DNA of 52,826 nucleotides from Ignavibacteriales bacterium (GTDB taxonomy: Bacteria > Bacteroidota > Ignavibacteria > T3Sed10-11). The stretch's first letter is position 1; each line of letters starts with the position of its first letter. The stretch spans positions 1-52,826 of the forward strand of contig PWTU01000297.1 of the NCBI GenBank assembly GCA_003562775.1, in the 5' to 3' direction. The notes below the pieces were generated by a model. The model ran no database searches and was not told the origin of the DNA. It saw only the letters and a program-made list of their open reading frames with translations. A program made the position numbers and the translations under genes. This document shows, piece by piece, positions 252-32,238 of this stretch.

Positions 252-1277
252 TTAAAAATGTAGTTTAGACACAGCTGAGTGCAACTCATCGCTTGCCAAG
301 TGCGAATATACCTGAGTAACCGTAACGTTGCTGTGTCCAAGAAGCTTTTGGACTTCGTAAATGCTCACACCGGCTTTTACCAACCATGTAGCAAATGTAT
401 GACGGAGGGAGTGAAAATGAATTGAACTGTCCAGTCCAACTTTTCGAACCAATTCTCTGAATCTCTTCGAAGCAAGATTCCCCTCGATAGGTTTATCGCT
501 ATTTGTTAAGGTAAATATATACCCACTACTATCAATATTCCCCTTCATTTTTTCAGATAAAAAACTCTGGAGCAACTCATTCATCGGCACAACGCGCCGC
601 TTCCCGTGTTTCGTTTGGAAACTTTGATTACTGACGACATAGATAAGTCGTTTTTCAAGATCAACATCAGGATATCGTAGATTCAGGATTTCACCTCGAC
701 GTAAGCCTGTTAATACGGCAAATATTATAACTTCCTTGAGCCATCCCTTCGAATTCCTGATCAATATTTCGAATTGCTCCTTCTTGATATAGCTAGGTAC
801 CTTTTCTGGAACGGGAAGCTTTTTCATGCCTGAAAACGGGTTTTCCGCAAGATACTTCCATCGAACTGCCGTGTTAAAGCATGCCGATAAAGCACGAAGT
901 TCAATATTTACTGAAGTGGGTGCAACTGATTCAGCCCGGGTTGCTTTGTATTTATCAAGGTGACGTATAGAATAGCTAGTGAGCATACGATCACCACATA
1001 TTTCCCGGAAGTCTTCGAGCATTCGACGGTATATGGCTATTGTTTTATCGGCGTAAATAGCCTTTGCGTAATCCAAGAACTCCTCTGTGAACTTAGAGAG
1101 TTTTATGTTCTGTGTTTGGGTCTTTATCTTGTCCTTGAATTCCGACAGAAATGCCAACGCTTTCCCCTTAGACCTCGTCCGTGTTGATTTCCATCGACGT
1201 ACTGAATCGAAGCAATAGCTCACATAGTATATACCATTATTTCGTTTGAAGAGAGAGAATTGAGTAGGAACTGCCAT
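252..1277 (-). CDS. tyrosine recombinase / phage-type integrase
   Basis: This 341-aa protein is a site-specific recombinase that would cut and rejoin DNA at an attachment site. The N-terminal part (about residues 1-50) is an arm-binding-like domain, a SAM-like core-binding domain follows (about 55-150), and the catalytic domain occupies about 160-335. The catalytic set is complete: Arg193 (TGLRRGE), His289/Arg292 (HSLRH), His315 (LLGHS) and nucleophile Tyr324. The ATG is preceded by a good GGAGG Shine-Dalgarno. It lies 70 bp from the 3' end of tRNA-Val on the same strand, the usual position of an island or prophage integrase that uses the tRNA 3' end as att. The other end of such an element is outside the window. 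Confidence 0.93.
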   Translation of the reverse strand: MAVPTQFSLFKRNNGIYYVSYCFDSVRRWKSTRTRSKGKALAFLSEFKDKIKTQTQNIKLSKFTEEFLDYAKAIYADKTIAIYRRMLEDFREICGDRMLTSYSIRHLDKYKATRAESVAPTSVNIELRALSACFNTAVRWKYLAENPFSGMKKLPVPEKVPSYIKKEQFEILIRNSKGWLKEVIIFAVLTGLRRGEILNLRYPDVDLEKRLIYVVSNQSFQTKHGKRRVVPMNELLQSFLSEKMKGNIDSSGYIFTLTNSDKPIEGNLASKRFRELVRKVGLDSSIHFHSLRHTFATWLVKAGVSIYEVQKLLGHSNVTVTQVYSHLASDELHSAVSKLHF

Positions 1278-1347: not shown

Positions 1348-1422
1348 TGGGCGCTACTAGATTTGAACTAGTGACCTCCTGCTTGTAAGGCAGGCGCTCT
1401 AAACCAACTGAGCTAAGCGCCC
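1348..1422 (-). tRNA. tRNA-Val (anticodon TAC)
   Basis: The minus strand folds as a full cloverleaf. The acceptor stem GGGCGCT/AGCGCCC is perfect, followed by a D arm with GCTC...GAGC, an anticodon stem CCTGC/GCAGG with loop CTTACAA (anticodon TAC, valine), and a T arm ACTAG-TTCAAAT-CTAGT. The discriminator is A, and the 3' CCA is not encoded. The gene has its own sigma-70 promoter upstream. An integrase gene follows directly 3', so the tRNA 3' half is a likely attachment site. Confidence 0.96.
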
Positions 1423-4407: not shown

Positions 4408-4638
4408 TTATTTTCGTAAAATATATTTTGCTGCTTTTACGACAGACTCTTTTCGAACCCTGGCTGCATGAGTGTTTTGCTGTTGTATTTGTTCATACAA
4501 CTCCGTACGGTAAATTTTCACATCCTTCGGAGCTTCTATTCCTAATTTGATCTGGCCGTGTTCAATAGATACCACTTTGACAATTATATTGTCTCCAATG
4601 GTAATACTTTCTCCGGGTTTTCGCGTTAAAATTAGCAT
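4408..4638 (-). CDS. csrA: carbon storage regulator / translational regulator CsrA
   Basis: CsrA is a small RNA-binding dimer that represses translation by covering GGA motifs near ribosome binding sites. The 76-aa protein begins [12 protein letters not shown] and contains [13 protein letters not shown] and YRTELYEQI, the classic CsrA sequence. It lies 3 bp after fliW, its known protein antagonist. The pair typically couples flagellin level to flagellin translation. The flagellin gene itself is not in the window. Confidence 0.97.
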
Positions 4639-4641
4639 ATT

Positions 4642-5058
4642 TTACTCGTGTACAAATTGTTGCGATGAAGGAATAAGAGGATACCGCATTGAAAGTGATT
4701 CATCCTCTACAATTATTTGTTCCCCCGTTTGTGTATTATTGTCAATAACAATCGGGCTCCGCAAGTTTACCGTCGAGTCCTCAACGTTCTCCCGCAGCGT
4801 TGCGATGAGAAGAATTGTCACATTGTCTCCCCGTTCGATTTTCTCAACATAAAACGGAAGCAGTTTCGACGGCTCCAAAAGCGGAAAGCTCACTGCTTCG
4901 TCATCAACGGAAACCAACCAGTGGAAAGGTTCGGATTCCTCATCGGATACCAGAATAAACTTTTTGCAGTATTCAAATCCGATTATTCCCTGAGGAAAAT
5001 GCAGAATATGTTTTTCCTCGAATTCAAGCTCTCCGAATTGTTGATTAGTAAACTTCAT
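4642..5058 (-). CDS. fliW: flagellar assembly factor FliW
   Basis: FliW binds CsrA and flagellin competitively, so it releases flagellin mRNA from repression when flagellin is exported. The 138-aa length is typical. Family motifs are FPQGIIGFEYCKKF near residue 22 and PFHWLVSVDD near residue 43. It is followed almost immediately by csrA and preceded by flgL, the common order flgK-flgL-fliW-csrA. Confidence 0.95.
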   Translation of the reverse strand: MKFTNQQFGELEFEEKHILHFPQGIIGFEYCKKFILVSDEESEPFHWLVSVDDEAVSFPLLEPSKLLPFYVEKIERGDNVTILLIATLRENVEDSTVNLRSPIVIDNNTQTGEQIIVEDESLSMRYPLIPSSQQFVHE

Positions 5059-26578: not shown

Positions 26579-27871
26579 CTACCTCTTCAGATTTACTACC
26601 TCATTCAGTATTTCATCGCTCACCGTGATCACTCTCGCACCCGATTGGAATCCCCGCTGTGCGATTATCATACGGGTGAATTCTTCGGTTAAGTCGATAT
26701 TCGATTGCTCGAGTGCTCTTGCAATAATCTGTGAGTTGGATTGCGACTCATCGCCGGGTGAAATTATCGAGGGTGCACCTGAATTACCGGAGATATCGTA
26801 CAAATTATTCCCCGTTCTTATCAACCCGCCGGGATTATTAAATTCAGCAAGCATTATCTGTCCCAGAGTCATAATCGTGCCGTTGGAAAATGTTCCCTGT
26901 ATACGACCGCTCAGGTCGATATTCACATCGGTTAAGATGCCGGAGCTATAACCATCCTGTTCCCGGGGAGAGACGTTCGAAGCACCTTCACTCTGAGTCA
27001 TACCGGCGAATACTCCGGATTGACCGAGATTTATGTCAATTTGTTGATTTTGATCTGCACCATTTCCCGGGTCCCAATTGTTTAATGCCAATACTACGTC
27101 AGCTCCCGCTGGGATCGCCACCCCATTAACCGCTTCTAGTGTTCCATCATCACCAAATTCAACGGTATCACCAACTCCTCCTCCTCCGACTGTTACTCCA
27201 GCAATTTCAGCTTCCCAATTCCATGTATTATTCCCGGTTTTTTCAAATGTTACCGTCAAGGTATGTCTGTTGCCGAGCGAATCAAATATAGTTACTGAGG
27301 AGTTGATAGTTTCACCTACATCTGCAGCCGCATTCAGATTCCCGGCTAATTTCACCAATTCAGTTGCATTAGCCGGAGCTTTTCTATCAAGGGCAATCCG
27401 TATGTCCTCGAGAGCAGTGCCTTCAGGAATATTGCCGTTTGCATCTGCCAACTTACCTTGCAATATCGAGCCGCTGCCAGGATGAACAAGCATACCATTT
27501 GAATCCAGTGTAAATGCCCCGTTTCTTGTATATAATAAGTGCCCCTCTTTTTTAACAATAAACAACCCGTCTCCCTGGATGGCCAGATCGGTCGACTGTC
27601 CGGTTGTTTCTATATTCCCCTGCGAGAACAAGGTATCGATAGAACTTGCCGACATACCAAGCCCAACCTGCATTGGATTTACACCGCCGGTGCCGCCGTA
27701 TGGGAGCGTCGCATTGCGAAGCATCTGGGAAAACGATTCGCTGAAGGAAATACGACTCCCCTTATATCCCACGGTGTTTATATTTGCGATGTTGTTTCCG
27801 ATTACGTCCATCATCAACTGATGGTTACGCAAACCGGTAACACCCGATGAAAGAGATCGAATGAATGACAT
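26579..27871 (-). CDS. flgE: flagellar hook protein FlgE
   Basis: FlgE is the hook subunit. The 430-aa protein has the rod/hook N-terminus MSFIRSLSSGVTGLRNHQLMMDVIGNNIANINTVGYK, a middle domain with the FlgE D2-type stretch (about 150-330), and the C-terminus LTEEFTRMIIAQRGFQSGARVI. AAAAGGAGGG lies 4-5 nt before the ATG. Its leader carries a structured RNA motif shared only with fliK. Confidence 0.96.
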   Translation of the reverse strand: MSFIRSLSSGVTGLRNHQLMMDVIGNNIANINTVGYKGSRISFSESFSQMLRNATLPYGGTGGVNPMQVGLGMSASSIDTLFSQGNIETTGQSTDLAIQGDGLFIVKKEGHLLYTRNGAFTLDSNGMLVHPGSGSILQGKLADANGNIPEGTALEDIRIALDRKAPANATELVKLAGNLNAAADVGETINSSVTIFDSLGNRHTLTVTFEKTGNNTWNWEAEIAGVTVGGGGVGDTVEFGDDGTLEAVNGVAIPAGADVVLALNNWDPGNGADQNQQIDINLGQSGVFAGMTQSEGASNVSPREQDGYSSGILTDVNIDLSGRIQGTFSNGTIMTLGQIMLAEFNNPGGLIRTGNNLYDISGNSGAPSIISPGDESQSNSQIIARALEQSNIDLTEEFTRMIIAQRGFQSGARVITVSDEILNEVVNLKR

Positions 27872-27875
27872 AATA

Positions 27876-27885
27876 CCCTCCTTTT
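27876..27885 (-). promoter_or_regulatory. Shine-Dalgarno of flgE, complementary to its own leader
   Basis: AAAAGGAGGG on the minus strand lies just before the flgE ATG. Its GGAGGG core is a perfect complement of CCCTCC at 27937-27932, which overlaps the 3' arm of the leader motif helix P1. Pairing of the two would hide the ribosome site. Confidence 0.65.
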
Positions 27886-27903: not shown

Positions 27904-27990
27904 GATCGAGCTTCATTCGTTCGGCTCGACCGGAGGGCTTCCGTTTCAGGTTTTTACTAATAATTATACCTGAATGAACGGGCCAGCCCC
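27904..27990 (-). promoter_or_regulatory. structured RNA motif in flgE leader (copy 1)
   Basis: Minus strand, 5' to 3'. GGGGCT (27990-27985) pairs with AGCCC (27939-27935) as P1. Inside P1, GGC is followed by a stem (CCGTT/AACGG, then TCAGGT/ACCTGA) and a single A. After a 3-nt linker, an 8-bp stem GGTCGAGC/GCTCGATC encloses a 12-nt loop that begins CGAACGA. The motif starts 9 nt after the previous gene and ends 33 nt before the flgE ATG. The fliK leader repeats the same layout. Confidence 0.7.
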
Positions 27991-27998
27991 TGTGTTTA

Positions 27999-28397
27999 TT
28001 ATTGTTTTTTATCTACTATTACTGCACTATCAATATTGGTAAAAACATTTTCATTCAGTTGTTCACCGCCTATTGCCGTTACCACTGTTTTATTTTTTAT
28101 ATTCACGATAAATGCAAGGTCTCGCAAAAGTATGAGCGAATCCCGCGCACCTTTTGTCTCTGCTTTTTCGACGGCGCTTCTTAGTTGTACCTTCTCCGTT
28201 TCACTTAATTTGATGCTTCGCTCGTCAAGGCGTTGCTGTGCATGTTTGGAGAACTTAATCTGCTCCAGTTCCTTGCGAAATACCGCTTCAAAAGAACGGT
28301 CGTGAGGCAGCTTTACGGAGGTTCGCTCCTTTAACGAGTCAACCCCGTGCACCGGTACAAACGGTATCTTTACTCCATTGACAATGTTTTCAGCCAT
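27999..28397 (-). CDS. flagellar operon protein (TIGR02530 type)
   Basis: This 132-aa protein contains KFSKHAQQRLDERSIKLSE and KGARDSLILLRDLAFIVNIKNKTVVTAI, which match the conserved flagellar operon protein family TIGR02530. Members lie between flgD and flgE in many non-enteric bacteria, exactly as here. The function is unknown. It starts 3 bp after flgD ends. Confidence 0.9.
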   Translation of the reverse strand: MAENIVNGVKIPFVPVHGVDSLKERTSVKLPHDRSFEAVFRKELEQIKFSKHAQQRLDERSIKLSETEKVQLRSAVEKAETKGARDSLILLRDLAFIVNIKNKTVVTAIGGEQLNENVFTNIDSAVIVDKKQ

Positions 28398-29083: not shown

Positions 29084-32000
29084 CTATAGGATTAAATCGA
29101 TTGTATTGTACTCAAAAAATCTTTGCGTCCGTTTTGCTGTTTCAGGTTCGTTTTCCTCTCTTTTTCTTCCCTGATATCTTGAATGCCAGCCGGGTTGTTC
29201 ACCTCTTTCCTCTGCCTGATTCGATTGGCCCCCCGTTAAAATATCAAAGCGCTGCACTTCTATTCCGCGCGCAATAAGCGCTTCCCGTAATTGCGGGAGC
29301 TGTCCCTCAATCATCGCTTTAACAGCTGCATTAGTGACATCGACCTTCGCGGTCATTTTTCCGTTTTCCATCCTCATTTTAATAAAAAGTTCGCCCAGAT
29401 ATTCGGGCTTTAACCGGAACCGGATTTCCGATATATCATTCTGCATTCGCAGGGATACTGCTTTTGCAATATCCTCGATTGCCTGCTTTGGAAATTCGGT
29501 AAATGATGTCGTTTGTCCGGTCCCCTGCTTCGCCGGCGTTCCGCTCATCGTCGTCGTTGTTATATTTTGATGCGACGCCTCGGCTAATTTAAACTGAAAT
29601 TCCTTTGAATTTCCTTCCTGCTTTGTGAGATAATTAGTGTTCGGAGCTAAATCCGGCTGCATATTTCTTCCATCACCGGTGTGGCGCCCTTGTCCTTCGT
29701 TGTTCATATCGGACCGGGCAGACCGGAGAGGTGTTCCATCGATAGTATATGTTCTCCCGGTCATCTCCTGCCGTAAATCGGATCCCTGTCGTTCAATGTT
29801 TGGCTTCGGATTTATATGGTGTGAATTTAAATTGTTGTCGTTTTGCCGTATTGCTTGTTGAGTATCACTGTTCCTGATTTGCGTTGAAAAATTCCGCTCG
29901 GGTATTATGTTTTCCACATGATTTTTTTGAAGGGATACCGGTCTCGTGACGGTCTTCTCACTATCTATGACAGGTTCGAGAGACGGTCTTGCTGCATTCA
30001 CTGCTCCCTTTTCTACCTGAACAGGTTGTTCTCTTGCTATGATCGGATTATTTTCCTGCAATACGCGTATTTTATCGGGACCCGGCTTTTGGCTTGTTAT
30101 GTTTTCCATGCTCCTTGTAATTTGCAAACCTTGTAAATCCCGTGAAAGTGTTTGCAACTTCACATCAACCTGCGTCTTCCCCTGGCCGGAATTTTGATTT
30201 GAACCGGTTGTTGAAAAAGGATTTGCCGGTTCACTTCTTAGGGTTTGCACCATTCCCGGGCGGGTACTTTTTCCGATCGGCGGATGCACATTGTTCACAG
30301 CACGTTCACTGCCTGTTTGATTATTAAATTGTTGTCCGATGGTTCGTATTTCCGTCATTACACCTGTATACCCGTTATTACTCTGCACCCGGCTTGAATT
30401 AACTTCCGGATTTGGGGTTCCTTGCACTCCAAACAAATTCCGGGTGATATTCGGTATCGGTCTGTTCATCCTATTAAAAACTTCATTGCGATGCAACGTT
30501 GAATCGTTTACCGGTACACGGGCAGGTGTATCATTCACCCTTTCATTACCTTGGATGGCTTTTGCAGTAAATATACGCGGTACCTGTTCATTCTTTACCG
30601 ATTGATGTTCAAGTACATTCGATTGATGTAATCCTCGGAAAGCAGGCGCCTGTTCCGCTTGACCGGTTTCTGTCTGTCCGATAACTTGTGTACCTGTTAT
30701 TACTCTGGAATCGTTTGAAGAAATATAAGATTGATTAGTATTCATTTCCCTATTCGGAGTAATTTGTATTCCGAGTAAGTTCCGGGAAAGATTGGCTATT
30801 TGTCTATATACCAGGGCATTATTCTCCCTGTGGTTTAAGAATAAATCGATTGCCGGCATACGAACGGGTGTTTCATGTACACTATTACTGCTGCGGGTCG
30901 TTTTGGCAACCGGTATATACGGTACCGGATTACCCTTTTCGGACGACACTATTCCGCGGCCCGGCTCCTGTACTTTTGGAGGATACATTCCGACGAGATT
31001 CGATGGCGGATTCACCTCAGTATTGAATCTCATCCCAATGGATCGTAATTCTGCGGTTAATCCTGCATTGATTTTATTATTTGTAGATTGGACAATATGA
31101 TTATCCGTGCTTTTATACGAAAGGGTTGATGCGTGCGTATTTACCCGAACATTACTTTCACTCCGGTTCTGTATGAGGTCTGCTACAAGTATACGAGCGG
31201 GAGTATCACTCACTTTTTTATTGCTATCCTTTGTTTTACCAAGCAGCATATCCGGCGCCTGGTCGTTCTTTACCGCCGCCGGCATTACACCGGGTAGTTT
31301 CTGATGTACTTTCGGTGAATGCTCCCCTGCAGGAACCGACGTATGATTAGATTGACTATTTGATGCCTGTACGATAGAATGTTGACTTGCTCCGGAATTC
31401 AATATACGGCCGGGGACTTGACTCATTTTATTATCACTTTGAGCTGTCTGTGAACCTAACGGATTGGTCGCCGGTTCATTTTGTCTATGCTTTAGTCCGG
31501 CATCTAATATTAGATCGGCGGCCAATCTATGGTTTTTACTATCCGTACTCCGACTATCGACTTGTATTCCTTCACCTCTGATCGCAGAATTCTTATCTCC
31601 GACCTCTGACCTCTGACCTCCGATCTCCGACCTCTGAACTCCAACCTCTGACCTCTGCCCTCCGACCTCCGACCTCTGACCTCCGACCTCTGACCTCTGA
31701 CCTCTGACATCTGACATCTGACCTCCGACCTCCGACCTCTGAACTCCGACCTCCGACCTCTGATCTCTGACCTCTGACCTCTGACCTCCGACCTCTGACC
31801 TCTGACCTCCGACCTCTAACCTTTGACCTTCAACCCCCGACTTTTGTTCTCCACTCTCCGCACGATTACTCATTTGTTCTTTCAGAGTCCCACCATCCCA
31901 TATCATACCATTATTATAAAACATAGAACTACGCGGTGACACAACGCCTATGTGTGATATCTGAGACGCATTATTTTCTCCTTCACTGATTTCGACTCCC

Positions 32001-32161
32001 TCCGGACGCACCAGATCAGTTTTGCCGGCAGCTTTCAGGAGACTTAACAAATTGTTGAAAAATGAACCTGATCGCCCGGCATCTGCTCCAATACCAACCT
32101 GTCTGGATGAAATCGTTCCACTTTGTATATTTTCAATTGCTGCAATAATGCGATGCATCAT
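29084..32161 (-). CDS. fliK: flagellar hook-length control protein FliK (very long, repeat-rich)
   Basis: FliK measures hook length and triggers the FlhB switch. From the ATG at 32161 it has about 1025 aa, more than twice the enteric protein (about 405). The C-terminal Flg_hook domain (about the last 140 residues) has FRLKPEYLGELFIKMRMENGKMTAKVDV and LPQLREALIARGIEVQRFDILTGG. Residues about 106-187 come from a heptanucleotide array (QRSEVGG-type repeats). A low-complexity middle follows, with three similar blocks about 110 residues apart (DTPARILVADL, ETPVRMPAIDL, DTPARVPVND). AAAGGA lies 8 nt before this ATG. The longer reading begins with TTG and overlaps the leader. Confidence 0.9.
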   Translation of the reverse strand: MMHRIIAAIENIQSGTISSRQVGIGADAGRSGSFFNNLLSLLKAAGKTDLVRPEGVEISEGENNASQISHIGVVSPRSSMFYNNGMIWDGGTLKEQMSNRAESGEQKSGVEGQRLEVGGQRSEVGGQRSEVRDQRSEVGVQRSEVGGQMSDVRGQRSEVGGQRSEVGGQRSEVGVQRSEIGGQRSEVGDKNSAIRGEGIQVDSRSTDSKNHRLAADLILDAGLKHRQNEPATNPLGSQTAQSDNKMSQVPGRILNSGASQHSIVQASNSQSNHTSVPAGEHSPKVHQKLPGVMPAAVKNDQAPDMLLGKTKDSNKKVSDTPARILVADLIQNRSESNVRVNTHASTLSYKSTDNHIVQSTNNKINAGLTAELRSIGMRFNTEVNPPSNLVGMYPPKVQEPGRGIVSSEKGNPVPYIPVAKTTRSSNSVHETPVRMPAIDLFLNHRENNALVYRQIANLSRNLLGIQITPNREMNTNQSYISSNDSRVITGTQVIGQTETGQAEQAPAFRGLHQSNVLEHQSVKNEQVPRIFTAKAIQGNERVNDTPARVPVNDSTLHRNEVFNRMNRPIPNITRNLFGVQGTPNPEVNSSRVQSNNGYTGVMTEIRTIGQQFNNQTGSERAVNNVHPPIGKSTRPGMVQTLRSEPANPFSTTGSNQNSGQGKTQVDVKLQTLSRDLQGLQITRSMENITSQKPGPDKIRVLQENNPIIAREQPVQVEKGAVNAARPSLEPVIDSEKTVTRPVSLQKNHVENIIPERNFSTQIRNSDTQQAIRQNDNNLNSHHINPKPNIERQGSDLRQEMTGRTYTIDGTPLRSARSDMNNEGQGRHTGDGRNMQPDLAPNTNYLTKQEGNSKEFQFKLAEASHQNITTTTMSGTPAKQGTGQTTSFTEFPKQAIEDIAKAVSLRMQNDISEIRFRLKPEYLGELFIKMRMENGKMTAKVDVTNAAVKAMIEGQLPQLREALIARGIEVQRFDILTGGQSNQAEERGEQPGWHSRYQGRKREENEPETAKRTQRFFEYNTIDLIL
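30500..31230 (-). repeat. imperfect ~330-bp tandem repeats within fliK
   Basis: Three related protein blocks occur at about 112-residue spacing: KVSDTPARILVADL, SVHETPVRMPAIDL and RVNDTPARVPVND. They have similar flanks such as VKNDQAP/VKNEQVP and ELRSIGMRFN/EIRTIGQQFN. They mark an old internal duplication that lengthened the FliK ruler. Confidence 0.6.
31601..31845 (-). repeat. (GACCTCY)n heptanucleotide tandem repeat inside fliK
   Basis: Counting from 31601 on the plus strand gives 31 consecutive 7-bp units close to GACCTCT or GACCTCC up to 31817. Four decayed units extend to 31845. Because 7 is not a multiple of 3, gain or loss of one unit changes the reading frame of fliK. The array itself stays open in all three frames and always encodes the same QRSEVGG-like cycle. 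An alternative minus-strand frame leaves the array and reaches a stop at 31510. Confidence 0.92.
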
Positions 32162-32169
32162 ATTGACGT

Positions 32170-32175
32170 TCCTTT
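32170..32175 (-). promoter_or_regulatory. Shine-Dalgarno of fliK, complementary to the leader
   Basis: AAAGGA lies 8 nt before the fliK ATG at 32161. Its complement TCCTTT lies at 32237-32232, directly 3' of the leader motif's last stem. The stretch GGACAAAGGAACGTC also puts the GGA in a small GAC/GTC hairpin loop, which resembles a CsrA target. The CsrA idea is inference. Confidence 0.5.
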
Positions 32176-32238
32176 GTCCAGAATTCAATCGTCCAATGTG
32201 ACGTTGCTTTATTTTAATAATACATCTGATGAAAGGAC

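Follow-up and report, generated by a model that had tools for sequence, protein, structure and literature searches.

A structured RNA motif, present in the leaders of the hook gene flgE and the hook-length control gene fliK of an Ignavibacteriales bacterium, defines a new family of cis-acting mRNA leader, which belongs to the broad kind of cis-regulatory leaders, is absent from Rfam 15 and spans at least three phyla. Because the motif precedes the hook gene and, in the phylum tested, is confined to genomes with the TIGR02530 protein, the leader probably signals to the cell when the outer flagellar parts are to be made. With copies in over half of the Bacillota genomes sampled, and a spread across three phyla or more, it would rank among the more widespread cis-regulatory RNAs missing from Rfam. 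It also offers a testable function for TIGR02530, a conserved flagellar protein without one, and provides a handle on the old question of how rod, hook and filament synthesis is timed in bacteria without the enteric flagellar hierarchy. Nothing like the motif is described in the open-licence literature that we searched; subscription papers and preprints were mostly outside this search, and an earlier description is not excluded.

Two copies of the motif and their fold

The window, by which we mean the whole stretch of 52,826 nucleotides analysed, contains the following elements, all on the minus strand.

27904–27990: motif copy 1, flgE leader (49.4 bits, E 3.5e-9, family covariance model)
27990–27980 and 27942–27935: copy 1, P1 strands GGGGCUGGCCC and GGAAGCCC, enclosing the inner stem
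27988–27985 with 27939–27936: copy 1, P1a; outermost pair G27989–C27935
27984–27982 (GGC) and 27940 (A): copy 1, internal loop
27981–27977 with 27945–27941: copy 1, P1b
27931–27924 with 27911–27904: copy 1, P2, 8 bp
27923–27912: copy 1, P2 loop of 12 nt, CGAACGAAUGAA
32238–32306: motif copy 2, fliK leader (56.0 bits, E 1.3e-10, family covariance model)
32300–32298 (GGC) and 32275 (A): copy 2, internal loop
32297–32293 with 32280–32276: copy 2, P1b
32264–32258 with 32245–32239: copy 2, P2, 7 bp
32257–32246: copy 2, P2 loop of 12 nt, UGAACGACAGAC
27999–28397: TIGR02530 gene (flg_new; C-terminal PF12611), next to copy 1 on its upstream side; candidate partner acting in trans
26579–27871: flgE, hook protein, led by copy 1
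27876–27882: Shine-Dalgarno (SD) sequence of flgE, AGGAGGG
29084–32188: fliK, hook-length control protein, led by copy 2; start TTG 32188, or ATG 32161 behind AAAGGA

The first-pass annotation of this DNA had proposed a P1 helix around an inner stem, followed by a stem with a 12-nt loop, in the flgE leader, and both direct reading and folding bear this out. The two copies have in common the layout GGGGCU-GGC-(inner hairpin)-A-AGCCC, a short linker and then the stem that closes the 12-nt loop. Compared with dinucleotide shuffles, folding gave z = −3.8 for the flgE copy and z = −1.9 for the fliK copy. The same layout had been placed before fliK and nowhere else in the window; the family model returns exactly these two matches, with no third copy at E up to 5. 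Within fliK, an in-frame tandem repeat (31597–31829; 11 copies of a 21-nt unit, or about 33 copies of a 7-mer) codes for GQRSEV-type repeats and may give the hook-length ruler protein a stretch of variable length.

Distribution, covariation and relation to known RNAs

A FlgE search of 99 relatives led to about 30 additional loci whose flgE leaders were read by eye; nearly all share the layout, with stems that differ in sequence. For the seed, 19 sequences were aligned with MAFFT (alignment A3), the variable inner hairpin having been shortened by hand to match columns, and covariance model R1 was built from them. In the window's class, R1 found 88 matches in 84 of 294 genomes, and 83 of these lie 17–72 nt before flgE, behind the TIGR02530 gene. 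Since so many matches sit directly before flgE, the motif is not a chance occurrence; a lack of copies before flagellar genes in relatives, or of covariation in the stems, had been set beforehand as what would refute the motif, and both turned out the other way. The other five matches comprise one cut by a contig end behind TIGR02530, the fliK copy of the window, two directly upstream of flagellin genes in separate genomes (L250, 2005–2060; L264, 2047–2099) and one weak copy. The weak copy (L269, 2413–2466, minus strand, 28 bits) has no clear target; the short open frame downstream of it contains a signal-peptide-like segment, and the copy may be due to chance or have a non-flagellar target.

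Sequence alone is not diagnostic, as a bare GGGCTGGCCC search over 61 relatives returned mostly chance sites. Chance matches were likewise abundant in a loose pattern scan of genome contigs (at least 119 loci), and two true Bacillota copies were found among the loci that it listed, one in a Bacillota metagenome-assembled genome (MAG) and one in a Peptococcaceae genome, both exactly between TIGR02530 and flgE. Across Bacillota, R1 matched 205 of 349 genomes at E up to 0.05, and a broader model, R2, matched 143 of 250 at E up to 0.01; the 250-genome Clostridia sample is also Bacillota, consists mostly of the same genomes as the set of 349, and is not independent of it. The best Bacillota matches precede flgE, and about half of the second copies (n = 20) precede the distal rod gene flgG, the others flgE. 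A T-box leader (RF00230; L308, 3221–3439) lies near the flgG locus of one Bacillota genome. In a third phylum, sampled around a Deltaproteobacteria MAG, there are matches in four of 161 genomes, each lying between TIGR02530 and flgE.

In the family fold, helix P1 is interrupted by an internal loop, GGH/R, and encloses an inner hairpin that varies between members; helix P2 is capped by a loop of 12 nt, Y-GANN-GANN-GA-N. Over 101 sequences, the consensus reads N-G-R-G-C-Y / GG-H / C-Y-Y...R-R-G / R / N-GCY, followed by linker, P2 (6–8 bp) and a loop Y-GA-MY-GA-CN-GA-N with three GA steps. No sequence departs from the bulge GG or from five of the six GA letters in the loop (101/101), and the sixth letter is kept in 100 of 101. 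Position 9 against position 56 is A/A, A/G, C/A or U/A, never C/G. In two diverged flgE leaders, L333 and L335, the P1 core GGACC/GGA is kept and the P2 loops lack the three GA steps (GAGACTG and AAACGCTTGC), a pattern that suggests either a greater need for P1 than for P2 or a drift in recognition.

The stems covary, and the earlier reading of a conserved structured leader with a conserved loop and variable, pairing stems is upheld. Among the aligned class matches (n = 88, 87 distinct), two-sided changes are seen in 14 of 15 pairs; paired cells amount to 97.4% in the 87 distinct class sequences and to 95.8% in the 101 sequences from two phyla. Neither the covariation score nor the share of paired cells was reached by any of 500 shuffles or by any slid register. 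As the 88-sequence alignment was fitted to the model, a MAFFT-only seed alignment and a fresh RNAalifold fold served as controls: in the former, 12 of 15 pairs covary with 95.4% of cells paired, and the latter, run afresh on the Bacillota alignment, recovers the same three helices, with 12 of 15 predicted pairs covarying. The motif thus has a conserved structure with compensatory changes and a consistent same-strand position before related genes, the general criteria for a cis-regulatory leader, and that it is a real functional RNA is beyond reasonable doubt.

The motif has no counterpart in Rfam. At gathering thresholds, the whole library found only a tRNA in the window (1348–1422, minus strand), which is not at the motif; between 27500 and 32500, nothing was found at E up to 5, and no Rfam 15 family matches the motif at E up to 1 in relatives' motif loci sampled from all three phyla. 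An integrase-like open frame, judged by eye only (252–1277, minus strand), adjoins this tRNA gene, as is usual where an integrated element has its attachment site. The c-di-GMP-I and c-di-GMP-II riboswitches (RF01051, RF01786) are leaders of motility genes in many bacteria. Signatures of the former had been judged absent at first reading, and neither model is matched in the window region (E up to 5) or in relatives' loci (E up to 1). The family put forward for comparison was the Termite-flg RNA (RF01729), a candidate structured RNA known only from termite hindgut metagenomes (PMC2864571). It is named for its position at flagellar genes, where our motif also lies, a likeness insufficient for membership; with the RF01729 model (106 positions), both window copies go undetected at E up to 5, and above its 40-bit gathering cut-off there was no match in the organism's own genome or in any of 248 genomes of the window's phylum. 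Termite-flg, like every other Rfam family, is therefore rejected as the identity of the motif for want of a match.

Association with TIGR02530

In the sample of 250 Bacillota genomes, 181 encode TIGR02530 and 212 encode FlgE/F/G proteins; all 143 motif genomes have TIGR02530. Within the 212 flagellated genomes, the motif is present in 142 of 180 with TIGR02530 and in none of 32 without it, counts that are not corrected for phylogeny. Inspection of 15 TIGR02530-positive genomes without a match revealed a diverged copy in every one, placed between TIGR02530 and flgE and scoring 19.8–39.6 bits with filters off; in some of these copies the P2 loop is shortened or altered. No diverged copy was found in the flgE leaders of five flagellated genomes that lack TIGR02530. 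The pairing of motif and protein therefore looks close to obligate. The flgE copy adjoins the TIGR02530 gene, and part of this link could be co-inherited conserved gene order; a function in trans is argued from the copies before flgG, fliC and fliK, which are not adjacent to TIGR02530.

The protein is named nowhere in the open-licence literature searched. What is seen of it counts against a role in RNA binding: two AlphaFold models (mean pLDDT 68) gave no significant PDB match, no RNA-binding fold is recognised, and the core is mildly acidic (median pI 5.6). A RelE-like RNA-binding fold was considered and rejected, there being only a weak match to DUF4258 (E 0.008) and no structural match.

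A role without any dedicated regulator has to be weighed against this association. The motif could be a passive element, such as an mRNA processing site or a 5′-stabilising double hairpin, that raises the output of bulk axial proteins relative to the rest of a long operon. Its strong hairpins, its place between operon genes and before high-copy products (FlgE, FlgG, FliC), and its distance of 0–30 nt behind the TIGR02530 stop codon in most genomes would all fit; however, a plain hairpin needs neither an invariant GG bulge nor a GA loop, its presence should not depend on TIGR02530 in the genome, and FliK is not a high-copy product. We regard such a passive role as unlikely.

The same near-invariant unpaired purines, the GG in P1 and the loop GA letters, could in a fold this compact make up the binding pocket of a metabolite or second messenger by which flagellar expression is set, and several independent target genes with one common function are what a small-molecule riboswitch might serve. 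Yet the motif is confined to genomes bearing TIGR02530, which need not hold for a ligand sensor; it matches no Rfam riboswitch and has no clear expression platform, and some diverged copies change the loop while the GGACC/GGA core stays. The near-obligate link to TIGR02530 favours a protein-binding leader over a riboswitch without proving it, and a riboswitch remains doubtful.

Possible modes of action

The reading that we prefer, and to which we give even chances, is that of a protein-binding leader which controls the synthesis of axial flagellar proteins post-transcriptionally, with TIGR02530 as the likeliest partner; the motif's structure, position and association are demonstrated by the present data, and binding and the direction of control are both inferred. 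A dedicated regulator, for which the TIGR02530 protein is the best candidate, would bind the folded leader and thereby change the translation (or stability) of the downstream mRNA, such that the bulk axial proteins (distal rod, hook and filament) and the length-control protein might be made at the right stage of assembly. At flgE, the copy would act beside the TIGR02530 gene; at flgG, fliC and fliK, this protein would exert its control in trans. There are no expression data. Action in cis on the downstream gene is nonetheless very likely, and action after transcription rather than by termination is likely. Whether TIGR02530 is itself the direct partner is an evenly balanced question, in the absence of binding data.

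As to the regulatory step, the motif usually lies 20–50 nt before the start of its target, with the SD sequence in between. In copy 1, CCCUCC (27937–27932), located on the 3′ strand of P1 and the linker, is complementary to the flgE SD, AGGAGGG; over the family, SD complementarity to this region amounts to 3.9 bases vs 3.0 in shuffles. Simple SD sequestration is not supported as the general mechanism: of 96 predicted folds, only 16 show pairing between SD and motif. Transcription attenuation was rejected for the window, where neither copy has a U-tract or intrinsic terminator on the mRNA strand and there is no excess over shuffles.

An arrangement of this kind resembles the autoregulatory leaders of ribosomal proteins, in that a protein gene adjoins the RNA which its product possibly binds, and the leader stands before genes for structural parts of that machine; it is an analogy only, without binding data for TIGR02530 on the motif. 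TIGR02530, a flagellar protein of unknown function in several phyla, could go further back still as one half of an ancient RNA–protein pair, a dedicated RNA-binding regulator with the leader as its only ligand. If true, rod, hook and filament synthesis would pass a post-transcriptional RNA–protein checkpoint distinct from both CsrA–FliW and FlgM. We hold this fuller version tentatively, at somewhat less than even chances.

In the CsrA–FliW–flagellin system, an axial flagellar protein is controlled post-transcriptionally through the hag/fliC leader, tied to hook completion (PMC11898703; PMC4894983). Control of axial proteins through their mRNA leaders is inferred for our motif too, and it might simply be a CsrA site that extends the flagellin checkpoint to hook, rod and filament mRNAs: CsrA and FliW are encoded in the window itself, flagellin mRNA is a known CsrA target (PMC11898703, PMC4894983), and a GGA flanks the internal loop on the 5′ side, the 3′ side or both in all 101 sequences (Fisher p 0.02). 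However, neither GGA is invariant (the 5′ side is GGC or GGU in 21 of 101 sequences, and the 3′ side has G for A in 18 of 101). CsrA reads GGA sites in hairpin loops and at the SD, whereas our motif is a two-helix RNA with its GG in an internal GGH/R loop, and its most conserved loop, the GA loop, is GANNGANNGA, not GGA. It is moreover found mainly on flgE and flgG, and its presence tracks TIGR02530. We consider a CsrA target very unlikely. Equally improbable is that the leader brings axial-protein mRNAs to the flagellar export gate for local translation, an idea supported by the export of every identified target (FlgE, FlgG, FliC, FliK) through the flagellar type III apparatus and opposed by the lack of a copy before most other exported proteins of the window (e.g. 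FlgK, FlgL, FlgD, FlgG), with no localisation data to draw on.

The csrA and fliW genes of the window lie side by side (4408–5058, minus strand) and adjoin flgL and flgK; the CsrA–FliW system of this organism may act alongside the new leader.
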